64,000 nucleotides of DNA from Vitis vinifera. Taxonomy: Eukaryota > Streptophyta > Magnoliopsida > Vitales > Vitaceae. The stretch spans positions 26,575,001 through 26,639,000 of the forward strand of contig NC_081818.1 of the NCBI RefSeq assembly GCF_030704535.1, written 5' to 3'. Below are positions 19,351-64,000 of the stretch, piece after piece; the stretch's first letter is position 1; each line of letters begins with the position of its first letter. A program made the position numbers and the translations under genes. The notes beneath the pieces were generated by a model. That model had not been told where the DNA came from, made no database searches, and saw nothing but the letters and a program-made list of their open reading frames with translations.

Positions 19351-22300
19351 ATGGCCAGATTACTGGTGTTGGTGGCGGTGGTGCTGGTTTTGAGTCTGAG
19401 CACTGGTGGGTGGGGCGCGCAAACGGGCCAGGAAGCTCCATGGAGGATCCACACCCTGTTTTCGGTGGAGTGCCAGAACTACTTCGACTGGCAAACAGTG
19501 GGTCTCATGCACAGCTTCAAGAAGGCGCGACAACCCGGACCTATAACACGGCTCCTCAGCTGTACAGACGACGAGAAGAAGAATTACAGAGGGATGAACT
19601 TGGCTCCCACACTTGAGGTTCCTTCTATGAGCAGACACCCCAGAACTGGAGACTGGTATTTATTTCTCTGTCCTTTTTAATCTAGTTTCGATTTGAATTA
19701 CTGGGTCACCTTGCAATTATTCATTAGTCGTTGGTATCATAAGCTCTTCTTTATAGTTTGGTTCGAACACTGTTTTCATTGTAATTATGTTCAAATTATC
19801 GTGATGCGTTGCATTTGTTCTGTAATTATTGCCACTGCTAATGGGTTTGATTTAAGAATGTCATGAGTCAAATTATCCATTGTTTTTTGTTCAATCCTGT
19901 AGGGCCGCCCCCCTTCCCTCCTCCACCCACCACTCACACACACAAAACAGAGATTTTCAGTTTCTTATTTTCTGAAAACGGGGTTTAATTGGCATTTTGA
20001 TCGCTCCATGCCAATAAGGTTTATTTGACATACCGTATTGAAGTTCTTGTTACTTCTCTATGACGAGGGTAATTTTCTGTATAAACTTTTCACTTTGATT
20101 TTTAATAAAATGAATGAAAACAAAAGAAAGTAACGTTTTGGAACTTAACATTTCCCTTGATTAGGATGCAAAAGAACAAAAGGCAGGGGAAAAACTACTT
20201 TCGACAGGATTTTGTACTACCATGTAGACAGTTGGAGTTCTTATACCTTTGGAAACAAAAGCAACCGAATATTTAAATCTCAAAATGTTGTTTTGGTGGA
20301 ACTTCCTTTTTGCTTGCATTTTGGGAAGGGGAAGGGGGTCTGGAGGTGGAGGAGATTGCTCCCCAAGCTTTGGTACATGGTTATATCCTTTGTTTCCATG
20401 TGGAGAAGATCTCCTCCTCCCATCTTCATAGTTCTTTCCAACATTTGCTTCCATTGGAAAATGTTAATTCTAATTTGAATATTTGGAAGGATGCCGCATT
20501 CTCCTTGTTGGCTTGCTTGAGAAAATAGCCTCCTAACGGGCAAGAGGTGTAAAGGTTGTCATTAGAACTAATTTTCTTAAATTTTTGGATCAGTTATTGA
20601 AAACTGTTTCAAAATAAACATATTAATTCTCAAGTAGCCATAACACCTATCCTTTCAAGACAAGACAACTCAAGTCAACTCACCTCAGCCTAGCCTCAAC
20701 CATTTGAGTTTTGGCTAGATGGATTTTTTCCTTCTTCCTTTAACCTTCTTATCTATTCAGCCTCTATCTAGGGCCATGTTTTAAATTGCTCAGCTTAATA
20801 TCTTCTGTCACTACTTTGATCCCTTCTTTTTTTAAAAAAAAAATTCTTATTGTCCCTTATCTTCCTCAACTTTGATCAAATCATTCCTTCCCCACACTTA
20901 CTGTCATTTCTCTTTGTTACACATGTTATCATATGCATTAACCAACATAGGGAACTAACTTAAACTCATAGCATTGTGGCAGTAACAATTAACCCTTTTG
21001 ATGCATATTAACTGTTTTCTTTTATGATCTATTTGATTGTTGAGAAGATGCAAGAAAAAGAAGACAACATCTTTTAAAGAGCATTAGCTGTTTTGCAACT
21101 GGTGGGTTTTGGAGTCATTTGTTAAGATTTTGAGTTTTTCTTTCTTTCCTTTTCCTACAATTTCTCATTAACCAAACACAGCATCGACTATGTCTAATCT
21201 TACTGCTCTGTCTTTGTCAACGCTGGGTCTGCTTTATAATGAGTCCCTTTTTGGCTGCATTATGATATTGTCTTCAAGAAATTTACCAATGGTAACTACA
21301 TTTTTTTTCCTTTCTCGTTTTATTCTCCATATCCCCCACATTGGTCCCCATTGTATATACTTTATTTTAGTATATGAATTTTTGTTTGCTCTTGTTTTTG
21401 AGCTTCTGTAGCTTCATATTCTTCTCTCCCCCTGCAAAATCACTAAATATCTTTATTGGATTGCCAAAAATTTTATTTGTGTGTCCTTGTTCTGTAGGTA
21501 TCCTGCAATTAATAAACCAGCTGGAATCGTCCATTGGCTTAAACATAGTAAAGATGCAGAGAATGTTGATTGGGTTGTGATTTTAGATGCTGACATGATT
21601 ATCAGAGGCCCAATTATACCTTGGGAGCTTGGTGCAGAAAAAGGCAGACCTGTTGCTGCATTATATGGGTATTGTACTTCACTTTTATGATTATCTATGC
21701 CAAAGTGTTCTTCTACCTTGATAAACTTCTTTAGCAGTTGGTCATTGGAGAGATGTTATGGGTAGTAAAGCTGTCTATGGGCTAAAGCTAGGGACTACCA
21801 AGCAGGAGGGCATTGTGTGCTGATGTCTAAGTTTTCAACTTTGCTTTCTGTATTTCATATTCTTAGGATATTGAGTGGAGAGCATTCCTTTGTCCTTGGT
21901 GAAGCAGTCCTTGAAGAAGAACATGACCATCTTGAAGCTCAAGAGATTTTCTTTTAAGCTACCTAATGATGTTCTTGAACCTTGCTTTTGGAATTTTATT
22001 AAGCAATTCAGAATTGATTTGGGCTCACCAATAGTAGCTTATCGATTGCATTTGATCTCCCTTACAGAAATTGTGACAGTCATTTTATATTCATAACCTT
22101 AACTGCTCCTTCAGGTACTTGGTTGGATGTGATAATATTCTTGCTCAATTGCACACAAAGCACCCAGAACTCTGTGACAAGGTTGGTGGTCTTTTGGCCA
22201 TGCATATAGATGATCTACGTGCATTGGCACCCATGTGGCTATCAAAAACAGAAGAAGTGCGGGAAGATAGAGCTCACTGGGCAACTAATTTCACTGGCGA

Positions 22301-25300
22301 TATTTATGGCAAAGGGTGGATCAGTGAGATGTATGGATATTCATTTGGTGCTGCAGAAGTAAGTTATTTTGTTTTGTTTGTCCCAAGCATCGAACTTTTC
22401 TACAATGCTTAATATTTTTGTGTTCTTTGCTTTTCAGGTGGGACTTCGACATAAGATAAATGATAACTTGATGCTCTACCCAGGCTATATTCCGCAAGAT
22501 GGCATTGAGCCTATTCTTCTTCACTATGGCTTGCCATTTACTGTTGGAAATTGGTCTTTCAGTAAATTAGAATATCATGAAGATGGTGTTGTCTATGACT
22601 GTGGCCGGCTCTTCGCTGAACCTCCTTATCCGAAAGAGGTACATGAACAAAAAAAATGAAAATGATTTTGAATGGAGGTAACAGTTTTCCTTTTTCTAGG
22701 CAAGGAATTTATATGAGAAGAAAAAAAATACAACCAGGACAAAACAAAATCCCAAATGCAGCAAAGGTTAATCAAAGCTCACAAGAAAACAACATAAATT
22801 TGGATAAAAATAGGAGGGTGGATGCCCCTTGATTAAAAAATTCCTGTTTCTATTGTTGTCAATCTTTTCAAAACTCTTCCCTTACATTGAAACGAACGAT
22901 ACAACAAATTCAATCTATCATTACTGAAGGAGCACCAGAAGAACTATGTGGCTGATGTTTTCCACATTTTATCTACACAAACCAACACACACTAGAAATC
23001 ACTCCAATACTGAAGCTTTCCTTGAGTTGATTGTCTGTCTCTATAGGGAAGCCAAAAGATAAAGCCTTGTCTAGCAGTACTGGACTGAGAGAACCATATG
23101 CTAAGTGCAACAACTCCACCTTTGGAATTTGGTCCTAGTTCATTCAAAGTCTCATCCACCAAGTATTTTCCTGAACTTGATGGAATCCAAAGGACTTGGC
23201 CCTGCATGGAAGAATTGGCTCCCGAGTTTAAAAAGGGAGGAAACTTCAAAGATCCCTTCATGCTATCCCATGGCATATATTATGTTTCTCTCTCTCTCTA
23301 TCTATCTATCTATCTCTCTCTCTCTTGGTTTATTCCAATCTAACTGCAGCATGAAATTGTAGAGGCCATCCTTTCTATGCCATGGTTTTTGACAATGAAC
23401 TAAATGGCATAAAACCAGTGAACTTAAAATAAAATGTTTTGTATATGCAATCTGGGGAGCCACTTTACTTTGGGCATCCCAAATTTGTGAACTCGTGTTT
23501 TGTTGAGCCGAGTTGAATTGAGTAGTGTCACATTATGGCTTGCCTTATGGCCTAAGACAGATTCCAAATATAACAGTATACTAATTAATCTTTTGGAGTT
23601 GTATACATGAGGAGCAGCCTTCCAGTTTTTCATGGATTATAGACTGGAAACTGAAGATAGATTCTTTTCTTCCGCAGGTCAAATTGATGGAAGCTGATCC
23701 AAGAAAAAGGCGGGCCCTATTTTTAAGCATAGAGTGTATTAACACTTTGAATGAGGGTCTTCTATTACAACATGCAGCAAATGGGTGCTCTAAGCCTAAG
23801 TGGTCAAAATACTTAAGCTTTCTAAAGAGTAAAACTTTTGCTGAACTAACTCGGCCAAAATTTCTGACTCCTGATAGTTTACAAGCTGAGGAGGCTGTAC
23901 AGAAGCAGGTCTCTGATGAACCCAGGAGACCATATCCAAAAATCCACACCATTTTTTCAACAGAATGTACCACATACTTTGATTGGCAAACTGTAGGACT
24001 TATCCACAGTTTCCACCTAAGTGGTCAGCCTGGAAATATCACACGGCTTCTCAGCTGTACAGATGAAGACTTAAAGCTATACACAGGCCATGATCTGGCT
24101 CCCACCCATTATGTTCCTTCTATGAGCCGACATCCATTAACAGGCGATTGGTAATTCTCTTCTCTCCATATATATTTTCTTCAGAATTGGAGAACTTGAT
24201 TGCTGGTCATTCGAGCTTCTAGCACTTACATCTAGGCATGCATTTCACATTATGCACTACTTGGTTTGCTTTACTATCACAGTGCCACTGCTTTGTTATT
24301 TGTATAGGTATTATGGGCTACCTATCAGCGTGGATGGTTTTGAAAAATTAGGCAAGAAACTAGCCTATCTGCACAATTAAAATTAGGCAAGAAGCCTTAT
24401 ATCCCAATTCCCAAGTCCTTGGGGTCAGTCAAGAGTGGATCCAGGAATTTTCTTAGTGGGGCCAAGTTAACATACTAAACTAATACTCATGGGTATCATG
24501 CAAAAGAAACAGAAAATTTATGCAGAAAATGTAATGCGCTAGAAGACAGTGTGGTATAAAACCTTGGTTTTTTTTGGCGCCTGTCAGGTACCCGGCAATC
24601 AATAAGCCAGCTGCAGTCCTTCATTGGCTTAATCATGCAGATATCGATGCAGAGTTCATAGTAATTCTGGATGCTGACATGATCCTGCGAGGACCAATTA
24701 CTCCATGGGAGTTCAAAGCAGCACGCGGCCAACCTGTTTCGACTCCCTATGGGTAAGAAAACAAGATTTCTTTTCTGCATTCTGTTTTATGTTTGTCCGC
24801 TTATAGTCACATGTAAAACTACACAAGTCACCTAGTTTTCTAATTCATGCATGTTAGCTACCTTATTGGCTGCGACAATGAGCTTGCGCAACTGCATACT
24901 CGCCACCCTGAGGCTTGTGACAAGGTTGGTGGAGTAATCATCATGCATATAGATGATCTGCGTAAATTTGCGCTATTATGGCTTCACAAAACTGAGGAGG
25001 TCCGGGCTGACAAAGCTCATTATGCAAGAAATATCACTGGAGATATTTATGAATCTGGGTGGATTAGTGAGATGTATGGTTATTCATTTGGTGCAGCAGA
25101 GGTATCTAAGTTCTTGTTAATGGCTTCACCATCTAAATTACAATTTTTTATCCCTTTGCATTCCAACTTGTGGGATTATAGGGGAAAGGCCAATATTTGC
25201 TCAAATGAACTTATGAAAATGCTTCGTGTGAAGCAACTAGAAGATCCTATGCTTCCAATATCGTGTTCTCTGCAATTCTGCAAGTTGTACTTAATGGAGT

Positions 25301-42900: not shown

Positions 42901-45900
42901 AATGCCAAACAGGCTCATTTTCTTGATGCCTATTAAAATATTGGTCAAAAGTTTGCCTATCCTGAATGGTAAATATAATCATTTCAATATTCAAAATCTA
43001 GAATATACTTCCAATTCTAGGACTAATTGATATGCAAAAGATCCTCTTTACTCTAAGCCATAAGGCGTGATCTGTTCATATTGAAAAAGATCTTATAGAG
43101 AGTAGCCTTCAAGATAATATTCATCCTTATCCACAGCTACAGGGAAGGGGGTGATTAAAATTCAAATTATGATATCTGAAAGGTCTAGCATTAAAAATAG
43201 TGCTGTTTCTAATCCCATATACCAACAACTCAAAGAGGAATATAGAAGGTTAAATACCCAGCCAAGAGTCTTTGATCAATTATCCAACAGAAACTTAAAC
43301 CTTAGGGCCATCAACAAACCTTCACATTACTCAGTCTTTTACCAAACAACAATATTACACCTTTTCTGATTTTTCTCCAATAATATGAAGAATTGATTGT
43401 AAAGGAGTTAAATACCATAGAACTGTAGGTGAGATATTTTTAACTTGTACACTGGATCCATAATAGGTGAAGTTCTGTTAATATCCAGCCCATCCTTCAC
43501 TTACATGGTCAAATTGATACTTCTAAAGGCAATGTATAAAAAATATAATCATGTATGTGTATAATGCGTGTTTAAACGCTACTGTGTGCAATCATGATGT
43601 TTCTATGCAAAAATCACACAGTAATAGAGATGAAATAAATCATCATAAGAGGGCATCTTACTTAAAGACTGAAATCAGCCAAAGCCAAGAATGGTTTGGC
43701 AAAGCTATGATCACACAAACTGCAGCTGATAACCATGCAGCACAAACAATTCCAATGGAAATCTTTGAAACCTTCTGAGTTCCACGCTGCAAAAAACATC
43801 AACAAATAAAATTTGAAAATTGACTCTACAAAGAAGTTGACAGCACTAAGAATTTAAACAAAACAAGAAAATTTGACTGATCAGAGAAGAACAAACCACT
43901 TACCTCATAGATTGCAATTTGAAACAAAGTAAATGCTGTCAAGATAACAGCATGAATTGAGAAAGCAACATCATTTGCAGCCACAGGTATCATCTGTAAT
44001 AAAAAGCGTATCACCACATATTTGTAAAAAAAGGAAAAAATGGAACACTTAAACAACTTGTTCTCTTCCACCCTTTTAACATAAGCAAAGTAATGAGATA
44101 CTCCAAATGCCAGAAACTTTTAAACCATGTGTCATCTTCTTAGCTTGTATGATTCATCCCTTGACACCAAAATCCCAGAAAATTTCAAAAGAAAATACTC
44201 AACTGTGTATTAAATTATTTGATAATTCGAGCCAACAGGAGGACATGAGGCTTGCAAAACAAATCTTAAGTTAACACAAAATAAGCCTCATCCAACTAGT
44301 TGGGGTGGGCTAACAAATCCAAACCAATATTTCAGCTATTTCAAGGGTCAAATACTTGAATTTTTAGGATTCATGTTAGTAGGCTTTTCCAAAAAGTTCT
44401 ATGCTCTGTCCATCTAATCAAAAGCTCTAGCGGTGGACTGACCTCAATTTCTGTCAAAAAACCAATGCTACAATTCATAATAGAAAGAGATAATTAGCTT
44501 GTTTAGAAGCCTACAGAGATAGGATGACAACCTAAATTCAATAATTAAGGACATATTTGAACATTTTTTAAGGATTTTTTGTTCAAAAAAGCAGCCCACA
44601 TGGTTTAACTTCTAACTTGAAAAAATCACCAACATCAGTTCCGGTGACCAAAGAAATTGAAATGAAATGATTGCATTTCAATATTATGAAAAAACAACAG
44701 AATAAATTTCAAAGTTGATTCTTTGCCAAAGGAGGTCAGCCATGCAGATGGTGAGGTATCCCCAAGATGAGAGCGAGATGTGTACATGAACCAATAATTC
44801 GACCACCATGCATACACCTAATTGATCCATTGGAAAAGCATGTGGTTACAACTCCGCGTGTTCTGCTTAGTGGTTCCCTCTCCTTGATATAGACTAATCA
44901 AGCTTTCAGCCTATTTTGTTTTGATGGGGCCTCCAACTCTTACTACCAAATCAAGACCCCTTTACCATCCCATATACTTGATGTTAAGCCAAGCTAACCC
45001 CACCACCAAGGTGAGCCAAACCCAATTGCATTTCCTAAGCCTACTCCCCAGCTCGAGGTTATGAGCATCCAGGTAGAGGGTAGGTATCCAGGTAAGATTG
45101 TTAACATGTGCTAGAGCAATAAAGAAACAGGATGTCAAGGCTTCAAGAAGAGATAGAGGTAACGGATGACAGTCTCCACTGGCTTTGTTGGGACAGAACC
45201 CATAGATGCTTTAACCTCAAAGGATGTATCCTCATTATCGGGCTTACAAATCATAAAAGGACAAGTGGCCTATTCCTGTGTACATCCACATGTTTGTACC
45301 AAATTCTGTATGATATGAACCCATGGGACAATCAAATATACCCTAAATTCATTCATGGCATTCAAAATTTCACCCATCCATTTGCAATGTCAAGGTACCC
45401 TTGACATAAATTCATCGCTCAAAATCAGAAACTACTAACTAGATTTTAACCTAGAGCAACACCAAAAATTTGTCTAAATCTTAACAAAAACTTCCAAAAA
45501 TTTGCAAAATTATTCCAAAAACAGGGAAAAAGAAAAACCCTCATTCGAAGTATCAACATCCCCAAGACGGGAATTATGGAATTCCCAATATAAAAAGTCA
45601 CTCTGATACCCGTAATCATGATTAGGACCACAAAAATGAAACATAATGAAGAAATTTTTTTATTAATAGAAAATGCAAAAAGGAGAACCCAAAAACACAA
45701 ACCTGTCCAATTCCATATTTCTCACGGTACTGCCTCTGGACAGCAGAGCTAAAGTAGAGAACCGCGTTGTATATCAAATACGACGAATGCTTCGTCAAGT
45801 TGAGCACCACGAAATCGAAGTTCAACCCCACAACACTACGTTTATCAACAATTCTAAGTAAGTAACTACTAGAATCTCAAGAGAAAACGAAAGAAGAGAA

Positions 45901-46400
45901 AGGATAGAACAGAAAAAATCCAGAAAAAAAAAAAAAAGAAACCTTTTTCTTCGGAAATTCAAAATGACTTGAGGGTAGAAACTGATGGACCAGGAAACGA
46001 AAGCTGTCCATCCAAATACTTGATATACGATTTCCAGCGAAGTCGAATTCCAGGAGGCCATTGTGATTCCCTTGGAACTCCCTCGGAATTGACTCCCTGG
46101 GAGTTGGATTTTGGATATTTTTGTGTCGTCGGTGACTCGGTGAGCGAGGTCAAGGTGCCGAGTGGTTGGATTGGTCAATCTTCCCACGTGAATGATTCGC
46201 CCGAATTTTATGTTTTGGGACACGGAATCTGCAAAACTGGTATGGAAATGGGGGTTGCTTATTCCAAGGTTTGATTGGATATGTGGATCATCTGACGATG
46301 TTGATGAGGTGAATTAAAGGGAATAAAGACAGATTATGGTGGTCTCACAACCACCAGAATTCAACTGTCCCATGCATGGACAGCTTGGAGGCTAGCTTTC
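39968..46400 (-). repeat. Tandem duplication unit A (cystinosin gene and flanks)
   Basis: Homology with unit B (49060-51840) covers the gene and both flanks. The 3' flanks share TACCCCCAAGGTGCAGACCC and GGAGCTCAA-CCAACTGAGCT. The 5' flanks share TTATGGTGGTC-CACC-CC and GGAATTCAACT-TC-CATGCATGG in diverged form. Unit A is longer because its introns are expanded. Confidence 0.8.
40282..46061 (-). CDS. Cystinosin homolog, PQ-loop transporter (copy A)
   Basis: Eight exons: 46061-45943, 45835-45703, 43993-43904, 43786-43662, 42278-42236, 40981-40864, 40767-40718 and 40428-40282; 274 residues. Cystinosins export cystine from lysosomes with protons; plant forms are expected on the vacuole membrane. 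Seven hydrophobic spans are visible. The two PQ loops are SFYPQVILN (Pro30-Gln31) and KYVPQAFMNF (Pro169-Gln170). The GNILLDL segment keeps the aspartate that is proton-coupled in the animal protein. The Met at 46061 (MASWNSTSLE) matches the start of plant homologs; longer upstream frames are ignored. It is followed on the same strand by an intact second copy at 49.4-51.6 kb. Introns total about 5 kb, against about 1.3 kb in copy B. Confidence 0.93.
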
Positions 46401-49059: not shown

Positions 49060-51840
49060 TACCCCCAAGGTGCAGACCCATGTTGCTGTTACTGAGTCAG
49101 GAGCTCAACCCAACTGAGCTTGGTTTCTTCCCAGGTATGATGAGATTCATTTGGCCATTACAGAAAGAAAATGGGTGGGAAGGCCGATCAAGGAACAAGC
49201 GGTCTCCTCACTTTTTATAATATTACAAGGGATGACAGTAATATTAAAATCCAATAGTTGACATATGTTCTTCAGTAATACACTTCTATGGAGCCACAGG
49301 ATTTTCCCTTAGGTTGGGAATCACAGCCTGATGTTAGGCCTATACAAAAATTTTCATAACTTTGCAATAAACTACACATTTCTTGAAGATTAGAATACAT
49401 TTGTGCCAACTAGACATTATACATTTTCTGACTGTGGGTGATCAACGGACTTGATAAGTGGCTCCCTACTCTCATCACCAAGTTTAGGACATTTACCCAC
49501 TTTCTTCCCAGGATATAGCAAGTAGTGTTGGCTAATGAAGACAAGGTCAAAGAACACTGATACCTGCAATTGTATGCCATTTACATTTTCACAAGAAATT
49601 CCAGAGCTAAGTCAATATATATCCTATGAAAGAGATTAATGAGTAGCAGTCACAGTAAAGAAGGAAGGCATGCAATGAACATTCCGTACCAGAGATATCA
49701 AGAGCTTTCCTATGTTTCCATAGAAGTTCACCCAAGAACCTGGAAAAACGACGAGAAGTTCATAAATAATCATACAGATGTGAGTACATAAATTTCAGAT
49801 GCCAACATCTGTTTGGTAGTGGAATAGATGACACACCTTGGTTGATAGACTGCACTGTCATCTGTGCATAATTAGCCACTCCTCCACTTAGATCGAATAA
49901 AATGTTGCCAATGCTAAATCCATCTGTGCTCTTTCGCCGAAAGTTCATAAATGCCTATATTTGAAATATAACGTTGGATTATCAAGCCTGAATCAGTATT
50001 GTTGTGCTTCAATCAGGATGTCGGGTCGAGCTACCCAATCAACTCGCGGAGGTTGAGTTTCCTAATGAACTCATGGGGGATCGAATTGCCCAATCAGCTC
50101 GTGGGAGTTCAAGAGACAACGCCCCTACAATTTTTTTTAATATAATGATTAACGAGTTTGCCCATATTACATATTTAATCATTTTATATTTAAGGTTTTG
50201 TTTTTTAAAAAACACGATGGTAATTGAGAAATTATTTATTTATTTATTTATTAGTGGATTGTTGTTGCATTCCGTGAATGTAGAGATCATATGGATATCG
50301 TTCAAACCATATTAGAAATCTTATCTCTTTTTTCTTTATTTTTTACTCGTGTGTATGATTTGGTTAACACGTAAGTCAATAATAGAATATAGATTATTAG
50401 AAAACTAACAACTAATTACTCCCACACAAGGTCTTCTTTCCTTCTAATAATATTTTTTTCCTTAAACAGTATCTTCAAACGAGTCAAGGTAAAGACAATT
50501 CTGACCTGCGGAATGTATTTGATGGTCGCCAAAGCAACTTGTATTGTGCTGCAACATGATTGAAGTTGTACAATGTTAGACAAGAACTAGCATTGATGCA
50601 TATAAAAGCTTTATTAAAAATAAGGTTAATACAATGACACAAAGATAAAAAATCGAAACAAATGTAGACAAGATTTTAAACATGCCTACATCAATGAATG
50701 AGAATCATTCTATTATATGGTATTGAGAAATATCCCATTTTTCCACTCTTTATATCCACGCCCTAAACCACGAGCACTAGAAATTGAGGCATCTTACTTG
50801 AAGACTGAAATCAGCCAAAGCCAAGAATGGCTTGGCCAAGCTATGATCACACAAACTGCAGCTGATAACCATGCAGCAGAAACAATTCCAATGGAAATCT
50901 TGGAAACCTTCTGAGTTCCACGCTGTACAAAACATCAACAGACAAAATTTAATATATATTTGACTCTATAAAGAAGTGGATCACACAGAGACTTCAAACC
51001 AACACAAATTGAGTGATCAGAGAAGAAACAAATCACTTACCTCATAGATTGCAATTTGGAACCAAGTAAATGCTATCAAGACAACAGCATGAATTGAGAA
51101 AGCAACATCATTTGCAGCCACAGGTATCATCTGCAACAAGAAAACATTTCACCACATATTAAAAATCCAAAAAGAGGAGGGAAAACCTGAAAGACCCGAA
51201 AATAAAAACCTGTTCGACTCCATATTTCTCACGGTACTGCCTCTGGACAGCAGGGCTAAAGTAGAGAACCGCGTTGTATATCAAATACGACAACTGCTTC
51301 GTCGAGTTGAGCACCACGAAATTGAAGTTCAACCCCACAACACTACGCTTGCCAGCAATTTCAAGTAAGTAACTAAGATTCTCGAGAAAATCCGAAAGGG
51401 GAAGAAGGGAAGGAAAAAAAAGAAAAAAAAACCTTTTTCTTCGGTAATTTAAAATGACTTGAGGGTAGCCACCCACGGACCAGCAAAAGAAAGCCGACCA
51501 TCCGAATACTTGAGATATGATTTCCAGCGGAGTCGAATTCCACGAGGCCATTGTAATCGCCTCGGAATTGCCTCTCCCGGAGTTAGGAACTTGGATTTAG
51601 GATATTTATGTTCTGCCGGTGAGCGAGGTGAAGGTGAGGAGTAGTTTGAGGTGTCCGACACGGAAACTGCGGAACTGGAATGGGAGTTGATTGTTCGAAG
51701 GCGTGGTGTAGTGGGATTAGGCAAATGGATGATCTGACGTAGTTGCTGAGGTGAGCTGAAGGGAATAACACAGGTTATGGTGGTCACACCACCGCCGGAA
51801 TTCAACTCTCTCATGCATGGCAGCTAGGAGCCTTTGGAAT
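49060..51840 (-). repeat. Tandem duplication unit B (cystinosin gene and flanks)
   Basis: Second copy of the duplicated block, same orientation as unit A and about 9 kb away. Compact introns; both flanks are recognisably shared. Confidence 0.8.
49417..51551 (-). CDS. Cystinosin homolog, PQ-loop transporter (copy B)
   Basis: Eight exons at the same junctions and phases as copy A: 51551-51433, 51342-51210, 51130-51041, 50922-50798, 50548-50506, 49954-49837, 49739-49690 and 49563-49417; also 274 residues with every exon of equal length. Both PQ loops are present (GGYPQVILN, KYIPQAFMNF) and so is the GNILFDL aspartate. Differences cluster in the first membrane span (GWSAFFCWSVGG against GWTAFVSWSISF) and in exon 5 (VALATIKYIPQ against VVMTVIKYVPQ). 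No stop or frameshift was seen, so it appears functional, with possible divergence in expression or transport. Confidence 0.92.
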
Positions 51841-56417: not shown

Positions 56418-58803
56418 ATGGCTTCTGCAGTGATGAAGAAAACCCTAACTTCAATCAAAAACCCTCTCATCCTCCGAGGACTCTCCTCCCATACCCTCCG
56501 ATTCAGCGCCGTCGCCACCGCCAGAAACCCTGAATCGGAGGGTGCATCATCGTCCTTTACGTTCAACGAGAAGAACAGTGATAAGGATGATAGTATACAT
56601 GTCAAAGGTCCAAGCTCGAATCCCCGACGCGAAACGACGTCGGTGACGATGCCGATGTCGTTCATGACGGGATCAATCGTGGGTAAGAGGTTCTACAAGC
56701 AAGCGAGTACTAGAGAGGCTGATGATGGAAATGGTTGGACAGTGATGCTTGATTACAGAACGCTCAAGACTCCTTCCAAGAGGCCCCTCAAGCTCCCTAC
56801 GCTCTCTCTCGCTAAGGCTATAGCTGCTGAATGGGAGTATCAGGTGCTTATCCTCTCTCACCAACCCAAATTGGATTTTTGTTGGCCATTGAATTTGCTC
56901 GGTTTCATAAAAAATTGTAGTGTTTCGTTGATTTAGGGCTTTGTTTCTACCATGTGGCATGTGCCTTTCTATGTGGCTTCGTTAGAATTTTTTTCCGCTT
57001 ACTTTTGGGTTTGGGTTTGGATTAATTGGTTTGTGATTTTGCTTGTGAATTTCCTTGTATCTGTTAATGGGTTCTGATCTCATCCGTGTTGAGTGTTTTT
57101 CCGGGTATTTTTCGATTAACAGTAGCTCAACTTGGAATCCTTTAATGAAATGTTTACCATTTTAGCAAACAGATGGGATCAGACCCTTTACCATGCCTCT
57201 CATGAAACTCGCGTGTACTGCGCTTGAAAGGGTTCCCCTCACACGGATGAAGATTATTGAATATTTGATGAAGAAGTTTCATCAAGATTTAGTTTTCTGT
57301 CGCGCTCCTGGGGATAGTGATCTCACTATTGGTGTCCTTGGTATGTTCTTTATTTATGCCTCTAATTTTCTGTTCTATTATCTGTCAGATTGTCGCTGTC
57401 TGATCTTACCTAAAGCACACTGGCTTTTCCTCCCTTTCGTAAAAGTGGTGCAATATGATGTTCTTAGTATTAACTTTAACATCATATCATTTTCCTCGGC
57501 ATTTGGAAGATAAGGGTGACTTGATAGAGCCAGATGGCCAAAAAAGGATTGGCATCACTCACCTGGAGTTCTTGGTTTAAGGCTTTCCCGAGTTTTGACT
57601 TTTGTGTACTTTGAAAAATGTGCTTCTTGAAACTTAACCATCATGTTGTTGAATTTGTTCTTATTATTTCAATTTTATTGCTTTCCATACTTGAACTTGT
57701 GTGTTTACTGGATTTACTACCAGGAAAATTGGTTAAATGAGTCCTTTGCTTGAGGTTTGGTGTCCTGTCGATGCTATAGTTGAATTTGAGGTTGGTTAGG
57801 GCCAATGCCAAGATGTGTGGTAGAGGCAAATGGTCCTGGGTTCGATTATTGCCGCTGGTTGAATGCCTTGGAATCACCTAGTGCAGGTTGTGGTGGGCAT
57901 GGTTAGCACCTCGAAGTTTGGGTCCCCTGAGTCCTAAGGGCTTGGTCATAGAAGATTCTTCAGTTATAAAAAAAATTGAATTTGAGGTTAAATTCTTTAG
58001 TAATCAGGTCTTTAAATCTGAGTTCCACTCAAAGGAGCTTTGGTTGTTGCTCATGGTTGTTTGGTGGTGCTTCTTTTTTATTTTTTCTTCTCTTTTACAA
58101 GTTGTGTAAGTTTTTCTAGCTTATGATAGCAAGGTTTGTATTAATCTTCTGCAAATAATAGGTTTTATATATGATCACTGAAAAGACATGGATTTGTTTA
58201 GTTTTGAATTTGAATGGGGTGTATAATATCCTTTTCCTACAATGCCTTCGAATTTTGCAGAACGGCAAGTGGAGAAAATTGATCCTTTACTGCAATGGGT
58301 AGAATCACAGTTTGGCTTTAAGCCAATAGTGTACTCGAGTTTTTTTGGTGGTAAACAGGAGGATGGTCTTGTAAATGCTATTGAAAACCTTTTGAAGAAA
58401 ACAGATGACTGTGAATTGGCAGCCATAGATGCAATTGCTTCAGCAGCACATTCTTTAACCATTGCTATTGGAATATTTCGTGGGAAATTACAGATTGAGG
58501 AGGCCATTGAGTTGATTAGACTTGAAGAAGATTTGCAGGTTTCTTTTTTCTTTCTTTTTCCCTCCTACTCCCTTTCCTTCTCGTACCCTGGGCTTGCACA
58601 CATGCACACACGTCTCCTGCATGGAGTGACATACTCAAGTAACTCCAATAGCCTTAACCTGTTCTTACAAGGTATAGTCCTTTAATAACATGCAGGTGGA
58701 CAAGTGGGGTCTGGTCGAAGGTGGTCATGATGTTGATGTTGCTGATCTCAAAGTACAAATTTCATCTGCTGCTGCATTCCTAGGACTTTCCAGGAGATAC
58801 TGA
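56418..58803 (+). CDS. ATP12: ATP12, mitochondrial F1-ATPase assembly factor 2
   Basis: Four exons: 56418-56843, 57166-57340, 58261-58538 and 58696-58803; 328 residues. ATP12 is the matrix chaperone that binds the F1 alpha subunit before assembly. Residues 1 to about 50 are a Ser/Arg-rich mitochondrial targeting region. The ATP12 domain begins near residue 85 (VGKRFYKQASTRE). It contains WTVMLDYRTLKTPSKRPL, AIAAEWEYQ, TMPLMKLACTALE and FCRAPGDSDL, the C-terminal LLQWVESQFG, and DKWGLVEGGHDVDVADL. Length fits plant homologs. The acceptor at 57166 was chosen over a nearby later AG because it keeps the QTDGIRPFTMP motif. Intron 2 carries a SINE. The gene is followed by the cysteine-rich peptide gene on the opposite strand. 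Confidence 0.94.
57780..57989 (+). mobile_element. tRNA-derived SINE with target-site duplication
   Basis: The body, 57794-57975 (about 182 bp), starts GGTTAGGGCCAATGCC, has a B-box-like GGTTCGATT about 45 bases in, and ends in an A-run. It is flanked by perfect 14-base direct repeats TTGAATTTGAGGTT at 57780-57793 and 57976-57989, the mark of LINE-driven insertion. It sits in ATP12 intron 2, in the sense orientation. The perfect duplication suggests a fairly young insertion. Confidence 0.8.
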
Positions 58804-59397
58804 CTTCCCCTGTATGTTTTTGCAGTTTGTTTTGAAGTATCATTCTGAGAGCTAGCTTTTAGGCTAGGTTTTGCATTTAGCTGCTGTGGGTTTGTAAAAC
58901 CCTTTTGCATTTGATGCTAAGGAGTGATAATATATTGCAGTTGACAAGATGATAATCAAATAATCACCTTGAAATCTGGATTCACTAAAATTTTTGTTTG
59001 GCCTAGATGATAGAGAGATTTCATGGTGCAATGATTGTCCAAGATATTGGAGAAGTTTGCCATTTCGAAATGCTTGTCTTTTATTCATATTGATTCACTG
59101 AAATATTTATTTCAGTTCCTATCTCCTACCACTGGGGTAAAACATGATGTGAACAAATTTAGAAGAGCCTAAAACTGCGGAGAAACAATCTGAAAATGAA
59201 TGGGAAATGCTGCTGGACTCTGGATAGATACGTCACTCTCAATTGTTGGTGGTTCTGTGCCTGTCTAAAATGCCTGTTACTGTAGCTTCCCATTTCTAGT
59301 TGATAGGATGAAGTGGAAAGTGAAAATAATGAGATGGATGCGCAAGGACTCGCTGCAAAATCAACCCAAGAAGCCCACAACCAAGAGTACCTGCCAG
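58804..59397. other. Convergent 3' flanks of ATP12 and the Cys-rich peptide gene
   Basis: About 600 bases holding the 3' UTRs of the two facing genes. No further gene seen. Confidence 0.5.
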
Positions 59398-59743
59398 TCA
59401 AGGTGCTTCTTCACAGCACTGCACACAAAGTGGTGGCTGTTTCTTTATATCGCAGTAACAGCAAGCAATATCACAGTTATTGTGGCATCCTAGAGAAAAG
59501 AGAAGTTCAAAATCTCAGCAATTTTTCCAAATTTGAGGAAATTTAGCCTTACAAGAATATGAGTAAACCAACCATCCAGGGTTTGGTTTCCTCACCTGTT
59601 ACCTTAATATACTGAGATGATACTAGATCTTGAGGATTTATGAGAAATGGGAGGCGGCTGCTGGCAGCAACTACATTGATCCTAACATGGGTAAAGGCAA
59701 TGCTGCAAGCCAAAAGACAAGATACTGCCAACAACTTCAGCAT
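59398..59743 (-). CDS. Small secreted cysteine-rich peptide, two exons
   Basis: Exon 1 is 59743-59596 and exon 2 is 59489-59398, joined across a 106-base intron with donor CAG|GTGAGG and acceptor CTCTAG. They give 79 residues. Residues 1-17 or so are a signal peptide (MLKLLAVSCLLACSIAF). A pro-like segment with SSRLPFLINPQDLVSSQYI follows. The last 30 residues hold eight cysteines, in the order CHNNC, CC, C, a loop DIKKQPPL, C, CC. The Pro-Pro in a Cys-bounded loop recalls Bowman-Birk protease inhibitors, but the loop is one residue longer and the Cys spacing differs, so inhibitor function is only a suggestion. A TATA box lies 60 bases upstream of the ATG. Each exon alone looks like noise; the join, promoter and signal peptide together make the case. 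A plus-strand frame over exon 2 is taken as its shadow. Confidence 0.65.
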
Positions 59744-59802
59744 ATCAATGTGTTTGATGGTGGATTAGCTGTTCAGTAGGTAAAATTTCCTCTTTCCACC
59801 TG

Positions 59803-59810
59803 TTTATATA
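59803..59810 (-). promoter_or_regulatory. TATA box of the Cys-rich peptide gene
   Basis: The minus strand reads TATATAAA, placing the likely transcription start near 59775 and a leader of about 30 bases before the ATG at 59743. Confidence 0.6.
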
Positions 59811-60600: not shown

Positions 60601-63600
60601 TTAAATGGCATCTGCAATGTGTCGCTGCTTAATTGTTGCAATCTGCTTTCCAGGATTCAATCCCTTTGGGCAGGCCCGGGCACAGTTCAATATCGTATGA
60701 CAGCGGTAAAGCTTGAATTCATCACATACTGCATCAAGCCTCTCCTTGGTGTATTCGTCACGGCTATCACTAATCCATCTGCACATCAATAAAAGACACA
60801 CTCAAGGTTACTGATAGCCACCAAAGAGAGAAAACAATAGAAATGTTTGCTTTGCAGAATTAAGCAAAATCATAGCAAAGGCTATTAATATTACTAATTT
60901 ATTTTTGACAGACGAATAAAAGAAATATTAAGAAGCATGCCAACACTATAAGGGGTGTAACAATGGTAAATAGAGAGCATGAAGGCACACCACAGGAGAA
61001 TTACACCAAAGAGAAAACAAAATGCATAGAAAAAGCCTAACCCTCTTCCAGCCATTGATGAAATCTAAAATAGGATAAAACTCAAATATCTGCAGTGATT
61101 CTGGAGTGTGAATGAGGATTTGATTAGAAGGTCTATCAATGCCAATTTAGTTCTAATCCATCAAAATCCTCATATTAAACTCTTTCTTAAGGCAATAACA
61201 CTAACAAAGAAGCACAATCCTCTACTCTCTCTGGAAGTGTGAATGAGGATTTGATTAGAAGGTCTATCAATGCCAATATAGTTTTAATCCATCAAAATCC
61301 TCAGATTAAACTCTTTCTTAAGGCAATAACACTAACAAAGAAGCACAAACCTCTACTCTCTCCACCAAGTTAACATGCTGACAATACAACATATCCTTCA
61401 CCAAATGAGGTAACATCCAAAACACCCTAACAAGAGAATTAGAAAACCACAAAATGAGTGCCACAATGAAGAAGAATAGGTTCACCATCTCCTCCTTTGT
61501 TTACATACACAACAACACCCTGACAAAGGTCCAAACCTTGTCATATAAGCTGATTGGCAACAAAAATTTTCCCCAAAGCACCACCTGAGAAAAAGCCTGA
61601 CCTTATATGGTGCTTAAGAACCCACACCTCCTTAGCTAGAAATGGATAGGAGACCCTAGATCTTTGTCATTATCAAACTACAACAGCACCACCATCACCG
61701 ATTCTAGTGGCCCCTACCATCCAGCCCCTCTCAAAAATATGGTACCCAGGCATCTTTATAGAGCTAGTGTAAGGCCTTTTCCTTTCTTTTCTTTTCCCCC
61801 CTCTTTTGTGGAGTTCTAATAGACTTCAAATGTTTTAATAATACAGTTTGTTAGTTAGATTATTTTTAGATATTTTGTCCCAATATAAAAAGTTAAATTT
61901 TTTAACTATTATCTGAAATCCATAGCCATTTCTACCCAGATTTTAGACAAATTCAGACCTATTCTAAAAAATCCATAGCCATCTCTTGTGACTTGATCTT
62001 TTAAAAGTGGGTTGTAGACTAAACTAAGGTTAATGCAATAAATTCACTTGGATGTCTTCATATGCAGGCAAAAGTCTTAGTAGTAATTAGCCACTAATTT
62101 ATACAGCAATACAATCAAGCGTAGCACATGATCCACTTCACTCCACTAAAGAAAGACTAAAACCCAACTAAGTCAGCAAACATAGTCCTTTTTTCACCAT
62201 TCAGCTCTTTGTAGGTCATATAGTCTATTAAATGATAAGTTGCCACCTCTCTTCACTTTGCCTCAACCCAAATTTGTTTTTAGCTTCCTCTCCCCTGTGC
62301 TGCTTTCAACAACCTCCCCTCCTGATGTAATCCAATGGTATTCCTTGCATATGTTCAAAACACCTTGGGGACCTTTCTCTCAACTTGTCCTAATGTAATG
62401 TCACCTCTACCTTCTTAACTGACCTTATCTTATTATTTCTTTGCTTTGGCAGTCATCCATCCAAACTTCAGTATCACATACACTATTTCTTAACTGCCTT
62501 GTCTAGAATCATATCCAATTTTTATATAATATTGCCCATTGGTATTAAGATCCATCCATCCATCCTTCTTTTTTATCTACCAATTGTAGTGGTATCCTTT
62601 TTTATTTATCTATCAATAATGAGATTTTACATGAGATCACCCAAGATAGACACCAATTCCCTTATTCTTCTCAATATTTCTTTTTCCCTTCCATTTAAAA
62701 GGTTAATTGGAAGTCAACTATGCCTTATTTTGTAAAAGGTTTAACCAAGTAGGAATCCAATACAAAACTCATGAAATCTATATCAAAAGTCCACAAAAAC
62801 TTAGATGATAAAATCCATTAAAATTCACTCAATATTGAGATTTTAAGTCCCTTACAAAATATTTACCAAAATCCCATAAAGGCAAAAAATCCTTGGATAT
62901 TTGAGGCTTAGACCTCAACAACCTGGAGGCTATAGCCTCACAGCTATATGCTTGGATAGGATGAGACTTAAGCCTCAAGGCTAATTTGTAGAGCCCCACC
63001 CTGAGGCATAAGCCTCAATAGCCTTTCAAAACACTGACCCTGACTTTTATCTTCTAATAGAGAATAAATGTTTTTTATAGAGTGACTATGAACTACACAT
63101 CCTAAGTAACTTACATTAACTCATTAAATCCAGAATCCATTTATCCAAGCAGAGCACTCAAACAAGGCATAAAGATCAAATCCTTCAACACATACTAGTA
63201 ATGAATATCCAACGGATAACAAATAAATTATGCCCTGCTTTTGAAATGAGGAAACCAAAAACCATAAAATAAACAAAGCAACAGACTATACAAATTCATA
63301 AACCCAAACATAAAAAATCAATTAATTGGATTGTTGCAACCCATTCTGAACATTGAAAAACAAAACCCCCCATAAATCGTGCCCTGATTTAGAAATGAGG
63401 AAACCAAAAACCCTAAGACAAACAAATGAACAAAAACTACAAATTCATAACCCTAAAAATAATAAACCAATTAATTGGATTATTGCAACCCATTTTGGAC
63501 ATTGAAAAACAAAATCCTAATAAGATTAAAAAAAATAGAAGGAAAAAAAATATTTACCTATTAGCGTGGAGCAGAGCAGCCGGACCCAGATATGACTCGG

Positions 63601-64000
63601 GGTTCCACCAGTAGCTGGGGCAGGATGTGCTACAGCAAGCGCATAGAATGCACTCGTACATCCCGTCAAGCTTGGCCCGATCCTTCTTGCTCTGGGGAAT
63701 CTCCTTCCCCGGCGTCGGTGGTGGGGTCTTCCTCTTCAACCACGGCTCTATGCTCTTGTACTGGTTATAGAAATTCGTCATGTCCACCACCAGATCTTTT
63801 ATCACGAACATATGCGGCAACGGCGTGACCGTAGACGACTCGCCAGAGGGGATCTTCGTGAGACAGGCCAGGCCGTTGCAACCGTCGATATTCATCGCGC
63901 ACGACCCGCAAATGCCCTCCCGGCACGATCGGCGGAAAGTGAGTGTCGGATCCATTTCGTTCTTGATCTTGATTAGGGCGTCGAGAACCATGGGACCGCA
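60601..64000 (-). CDS. SDH2: Succinate dehydrogenase iron-sulfur subunit (partial, 5' end outside)
   Basis: Two exons are visible: 63558 to beyond 64000 and 60778-60601, with the Arg codon split AG|A across a 2.8-kb intron. SDH2 carries electrons from the flavoprotein SDH1 to ubiquinone in complex II of the inner mitochondrial membrane. All three cluster sites are complete: the 2Fe-2S ligands in [10 protein letters not shown] with the later GLAC, the 4Fe-4S site [12 protein letters not shown], and the 3Fe-4S site [17 protein letters not shown]. The C-terminus ([14 protein letters not shown]) is of plant type. The visible part encodes about 206 residues of an expected 280. The missing part is the N-terminus with the transit peptide. 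Confidence 0.95.
61105..61362. repeat. Tandem duplication of a 131-bp unit in the SDH2 intron
   Basis: 61105-61235 and 61236 to about 61362 are direct copies starting AGTGTGAATGAGGATTTGAT and differing at only a few sites. The low divergence suggests a recent slippage or unequal-exchange event. Confidence 0.9.
61230..61650 (-). mobile_element. Probable LINE remnant in the SDH2 intron
   Basis: On the minus strand the order [16 protein letters not shown], then ILLHCGTHF resembles the zinc-binding (zf-RVT) end of plant LINE ORF2, where LLHC is a hallmark. It is interrupted by stops and frameshifts. The tandem 131-bp repeat overlaps its downstream end. Degraded, so moderate confidence only. Confidence 0.4.
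61650..63540. other. Remainder of the long SDH2 intron
   Basis: AT-rich intron sequence. A diverged direct repeat of about 150 bases sits near its 5' end: both 63235-63350 and 63380-63510 carry AAATGAGGAAACCAAAAACC, then CAATTAATTGGATT-TTGCAACCCATT and ACATTGAAAAACAAAA. No coding signal. Confidence 0.65.

Follow-up and report, generated by a model that had tools for sequence, protein, structure and literature searches.

A two-exon grape gene model for a predicted secreted eight-cysteine peptide with a Bowman-Birk-like loop

Does a short segment of contig C14 of grape (Vitis vinifera) carry a gene for a secreted eight-cysteine peptide, and what might such a peptide do? The segment lies near the end of a 64-kb window (the whole stretch analyzed, C14:26,575,001-26,639,000), and genome searches covered the 495.6-Mb grape genome of 21 contigs. 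We found a complete two-exon gene model on the minus strand, from the ATG at 59743 to the stop codon at 59398, whose 79-residue product reads MLKLLAVSCLLACSIAFTHVRINVVAASSRLPFLINPQDLVSSQYIKVTG followed by CHNNCDIACCYCDIKKQPPLCVQCCEEAP. All elements described in the initial annotation were present, namely, a TATA box, a leader, a signal-like start, a donor, an acceptor, and an in-frame second exon with eight cysteines. The splice junction 59596/59489 was also the same, while the strand had been unstated and the span is 413 bases by our count, not 415. Given the complete model and the strict splice signals, the locus is best read as a gene for a secreted eight-cysteine peptide, and very probably the gene is real. 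Our best guess for the product, at a probability of about 0.4 and by analogy, is a secreted, trypsin-type inhibitor that would be Bowman-Birk-like but stand outside the Bowman-Birk family.

On the gene strand between 400 bases before and 800 bases after the ATG, the donor used is the sole occurrence of AG/GTRAG. Just before it lies a weaker GT (AAG/GTAACA), the use of which would, by eye, shift exon 2 off its cysteine frame. The GC content is 35.8% in the intron versus 42.6% and 43.5% in the exons. Neither exon contains a stop or a frame break, and no ATG occurs in the 60 bases preceding the start. Nothing in this architecture is unusual among plant cysteine-rich peptides (CRPs), in whose genes an intron usually separates the signal-peptide exon from the mature-peptide exon (PMC3924332; papers are cited here from parts of their text). 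The locus has the same layout, with a likely signal peptide in exon 1 (by hydropathy only) and a cysteine-rich exon 2, but its cysteine framework fits no Pfam model.

The view that neither exon is noticeable alone does not quite hold, since exon 2 is the window's only stop-bounded frame with at least eight cysteines in 32 residues. Simulation of 300 sequences of 64 kb produced 10 such frames (0.033 per window), and a smaller simulation gave 1 in 60 windows. The 200 kb of real flanks contained one other (in locus L031), which by eye we took to be a group of cysteines within an ordinary protein-coding gene. Complete two-exon models numbered one in the window, none in 60 simulated windows, and none in the 200 kb of flanks. 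A second eight-cysteine two-exon model was found neither in the window nor in the 100 kb on either side, by a scan to which copies with lost cysteines are invisible. When random real flank was placed before the same cysteine core, a loose two-exon secretory model arose in 53 of 20,000 draws (0.27%) and a strict one in 0 of 20,000, whereas the locus itself does give a strict model. The strict limits were chosen after the locus had been seen and so flatter it, and the loose rate is the fairer number. As a separate observation, at least seven cysteines in 32 residues were found in five stop-bounded frames of the window (all frames); 300 simulated windows had 63 such frames, an expectation of 0.21 per window, and the 200 kb of flanks had five.

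The precursor begins M-L-K, followed by the hydrophobic run LLAVSCLLACSIAF, and its best 10-residue hydropathy mean of 2.72 is that of a signal-like start. By the -3,-1 rule for signal-peptide cleavage, applied by eye, cleavage after A27 or A16 is plausible. The mature part ends C51-HNN-C55-DIA-C59-C60-Y-C62-DIKKQPPL-C71-VQ-C74-C75-EEAP, with eight cysteines within 25 residues and room for four predicted disulfides. In its best model (mean pLDDT, 79.8; pTM, 0.34), AlphaFold2 predicted a hairpin in which core residues 11-14 (CYCD) and 21-25 (LCVQC) form the strands and IKKQPP lies between them. The model suggests a hairpin with the loop at its tip but should not be read as a determined structure. 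Grouped as CC-x-C and C-x2-CC, eight cysteines in 25 residues could also bind Zn or Cu as metallothioneins do, which would make the product a small metal-binding peptide, either secreted or vacuolar. However, the signal-like start points to the oxidising secretory path, where cysteines normally pair, and no Pfam model matches; we consider metal binding very unlikely.

The initial annotation had proposed a protein-profile search, and this assigned the 79-residue product to no family: Pfam and NCBIfam gave no match at E ≤ 10. A whole-protein search of the grape genome returned the two exons and, besides them, a weak C3 match with 29% identity (E 0.22) and one internal TGA, which we took as chance, and a search with exon 2 returned only itself. 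Both searches score only the best candidates, and a very diverged paralogue could escape them. The gene is apparently single-copy in its genome. Prokaryote and viral collections contained no relative; these are non-plant collections and are silent on conservation. In the literature, the letter strings of the core led to no plant-peptide paper, by title, among the matches listed, and the motif string C-C-CC-C-C-CC was in none of the matches listed. For queries on grape Bowman-Birk inhibitors, grape CRPs, and related subjects, none of the matches listed dealt with this gene in its title or in the opening of its abstract, with supplements and most subscription papers outside the scope. Judged from the sequence, the cysteine framework and the lysine-and-proline loop fit none of the families tested.

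Could the peptide be a diverged member of the potato type II, or Pin-II, inhibitors (PF02428)? It shares with them the eight cysteines, the form of a small secreted plant peptide, and a C-x3-C start. A PF02428 search of the genome gave three matches, on C12 (E 2.4e-9), C10 (E 0.52), and C1 (E 1.8), none of them at the locus, and of the three listed only the C12 gene was over the family cut-off. The C12 gene (C12:22,687,009-22,687,146, minus strand) is a Pin-II inhibitor gene with eight cysteines in exon 2 and a first exon that is signal-like by eye. It reads ...ACPLYCLDVDYMTCVSSGEEKLTAPCNCCLAPKQCTLHLVDGSEVQCD, with the spacing C-x3-C-x7-C-x11-C-x-CC-x5-C-x11-C (by eye), from which the spacing at our locus differs, and BLASTP of the product against it gave 8.5 bits (E 9.7). 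At1g72060 is described as an eight-cysteine secreted member of MEROPS I20 and as a mostly single-copy angiosperm gene (PMC3765131). Because I20 is Pin-II (PMC4189545), the C12 gene is likely the counterpart of At1g72060, an assignment by shared class. If our gene were that grape counterpart, its secretory start, small mature peptide, and single-gene status, as in PMC3765131, would also be accounted for. We rejected this identity, since PF02428 misses the locus while detecting a Pin-II gene on C12, and since the cysteine spacing differs. The proposal is thus mostly refuted and highly improbable. The hevein-like pattern C-x4-8-C-x4-6-CC-x4-5-C-x4-7-C (PMC11253845) does not fit either, as the first two spacings of the peptide are 3 and 3.

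The initial annotation had also placed the peptide close to Bowman-Birk inhibitors without equating it with them, and here the interpretation is borne out. We rejected membership in the Bowman-Birk family (MEROPS I12), since the product has no Pfam match, PF00228 misses the locus, and none of the Bowman-Birk chains of the PDB matches the product at E ≤ 10. Searched over the genome, PF00228 gave five matches at E ≤ 10. The best one (C6:20,142,020-20,142,058; E 0.84) reached 20.5 bits, with its frame neighbours, against a cut-off of 20.4 bits. Its E-value is poor, and of 14 control genomes 5 also yielded matches to the profile, none of them above the cut-off. At the sequence level, it yields no convincing Bowman-Birk gene in the grape genome.

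In the Bowman-Birk loop, Lys or Arg at P1 is followed by Ser at P1', Pro-Pro at P3'-P4', and a closing cysteine; plant loops are nine residues long and have C-x-C flanks. The peptide resembles this arrangement in its secretory start and in a cysteine-flanked loop with lysine, Pro-Pro, and the closing cysteine in the same order. In Q67-P68-P69-L70-C71, Pro-Pro is followed by x-Cys, and, on sequence, the order Lys-x-x-Pro-Pro-x-Cys fits the layout from P1 to P6'. The flanks, in contrast, are CC-x-C and C-x2-CC. K65 suits P1, but K66 is unfit at P1', which in wheat Bowman-Birk inhibitors follows the rule K/R-S for P1-P1' (PMC7995804). In addition, functional Bowman-Birk domains have at least 10 cysteines, and those with fewer are predicted to be nonfunctional (PMC7995804), whereas the locus has eight. 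As to distribution, I12 sequences were found in all monocots but only some eudicots in a survey that included grape (PMC4189545), and Bowman-Birk inhibitors have been called widely distributed in angiosperms (PMC7995804).

Amphibian Bowman-Birk-like inhibitors and sunflower SFTI-type loops offer a further likeness, as their loops too are closed by a disulfide, carry Lys at P1, and have Pro-Pro two positions further on. The frog loop reads C-W-T-P1-S-X-P-P-X-P-C, with Lys at P1 in almost all cases (PMC7760496), and the lysine of SFTI-1 suits the P1 site of trypsin (PMC11253845). The SFTI type has one disulfide (PMC11253845), whereas our peptide has room for four. The candidate loop opens at C62, one residue further out (D63 and I64 ahead of K65), as frog loops do, and it closes at C71 as plant loops do: it is of the frog type on the left and of the plant type on the right.

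Taken together as a mechanism, which we put forward tentatively and by analogy, a functional and apparently single-copy nuclear gene of grape would give rise to the 79-residue precursor, which its signal peptide would direct into the secretory path (secretion is predicted). A short pro-segment may be cut off, and the mature peptide would end in the 25-residue core with its room for four disulfides. The core would form a beta hairpin whose tip, I-K65-K66-Q-P68-P69, would be held out as a rigid loop resembling a substrate. With K65 as P1, K66 as P1', and Pro68-Pro69 as P3'-P4', a trypsin-like serine protease would take up Lys65 in its S1 pocket, much as happens with the P1 lysine in loops of the Bowman-Birk and sunflower types. 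The protease targeted may serve in digestion, come from a pathogen, or belong to the plant's own apoplast.

Several results weigh against a secreted inhibitor. The loop has 10 residues including both cysteines, compared to 9 in plant loops and 11 in frog loops. A lysine is uncommon at P1' and may make inhibition weaker, and, seen as a likeness only, the K-x-x-P-P pattern within so short a loop could be due to chance. A PDB sequence search at E ≤ 10 returned no inhibitor, its sole match being a CDGSH protein (E 2.9). Foldseek against the PDB gave no match at E ≤ 10, a result that is weak either way, as a 30-residue model is hard for Foldseek. AlphaFold2 was run on a single sequence, and the four other models had mean pLDDT values of 66.6 to 52.7. 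The codon-usage score was 7.6 in the coding frame, -0.6 and 0.8 in the other sense frames, and 7.5, 5.1, and 7.8 in the antisense frames; codon bias is uninformative, since it sets the coding frame apart from the other sense frames but not from the antisense ones. Finally, 0.033 eight-cysteine frames per window and the loose rate of 0.27% give about 1 loose case per 11,000 64-kb windows, and the genome comprises about 7,700 such windows; a chance case is thus possible somewhere in the genome but unlikely in a given window.

These last numbers bear on whether the locus is a working gene at all; instead, the gene may have decayed, or cysteine codons, splice sites, and an open frame may have come together by chance. 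About 250 eight-cysteine frames would be expected by chance in a 495-Mb genome, with a loose model upstream in 0.27% of cases; codon usage is neutral, and the searches found no homologue. On the other hand, none of the random flanks completed the core to a strict two-exon model, the exons are intact, the TATA box and the AATAAA signals are sensibly placed, and the 60 bases upstream of the start are free of ATG. We regard a nonworking gene as quite unlikely.

A real gene of this class need not encode an inhibitor. The product may be another kind of secreted cysteine-rich peptide, antimicrobial or a ligand of a receptor kinase, in which the Lys-Lys-x-Pro-Pro loop would serve as a contact surface rather than for inhibition. 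A signal-like start, two exons, and eight cysteines are common to many CRPs, of which 543 were counted in grape, 363 of them identified with SPADA, a finder of small peptides (PMC5557327). Nevertheless, no specific sign favors any one such role, and no Pfam model matches. We see this as a substantial, if still tentative, possibility. The distinct peptide family and the defence or signalling role suggested in the initial annotation may apply to this single sequence, and of that interpretation as a whole the parts concerning an eight-cysteine peptide and its nearness to Bowman-Birk inhibitors are supported. Returning to the inhibitor as our best guess, its boldest form would be an as yet unrecognized plant inhibitor family with its own route to a Bowman-Birk-like loop, set on a minimal 25-residue, four-disulfide hairpin and formed by the 10-residue Lys-Lys-x-Pro-Pro loop; this we think rather unlikely.

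The features of the gene are listed in Table 1.

Table 1. Features of the eight-cysteine peptide gene (positions in the 64-kb window)
Feature	Positions	Strand	Remarks
TATA box (TATATAAA)	59803..59810	-	first base 67 bases before the ATG
Exon 1, coding part	59596..59743	-	residues 1-49 and first base of codon 50
Likely signal peptide	59663..59743	-	residues 1-27; hydrophobic LLAVSCLLACSIAF; by hydropathy
Intron	59490..59595	-	106 bases; donor CAG/GTGAGG; acceptor TTTTCTCTAG
Exon 2, coding part	59398..59489	-	stop TGA at 59400-59398
Eight-cysteine core C51-C75	59413..59487	-	C-x3-C-x3-CC-x-C-x8-C-x2-CC
Candidate reactive loop C62-D-I-K65-K66-Q-P68-P69-L-C71	59425..59454	-	tip of predicted beta hairpin; putative role
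Two AATAAA polyadenylation-like signals	59080..59111	-	first bases 59111 and 59085, 286 and 312 bases past the stop

The peptide gene and a plus-strand gene for an ATP12 chaperone converge tail to tail; the latter is represented by the open reading frame (ORF) 56418-56936 (ATP12 domain, E 3.3e-16). ORF 58242-58685, which has no Pfam match, was taken for a later exon of the ATP12 gene, whose end lies near 58,800 by eye. An iron-sulfur-subunit-like ORF is located at 63554-63991 (Fer2_3, E 1.6e-27). Further off in the window, two similar minus-strand ORFs with Pfam PQ-loop matches (45822-46223 and 51159-51551), about 5 kb apart, are probably a tandem duplicate of a cystinosin-like gene. On the plus strand, ORFs 19351-19680 (no Pfam match) and 23684-24154 share the run HT-L/I-FS-x-EC-x2-YFDWQTVGL and are apparently tandem copies. 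An 835-residue minus-strand ORF at 32412-34919 matches FAR1 and MULE over the cut-offs and SWIM below its cut-off, and represents a transposase-derived FAR1-family gene.

If expressed, the gene would give grape a further secreted peptide with a cysteine framework outside the families tested, and its loop predicts trypsin inhibition that depends on Lys65. If the product is an ordinary CRP, it would join several hundred other small peptides that tend to be overlooked by gene finders in plants, in keeping with the description of small one- or two-exon peptide genes as often missed by general gene finders (PMC3924332).
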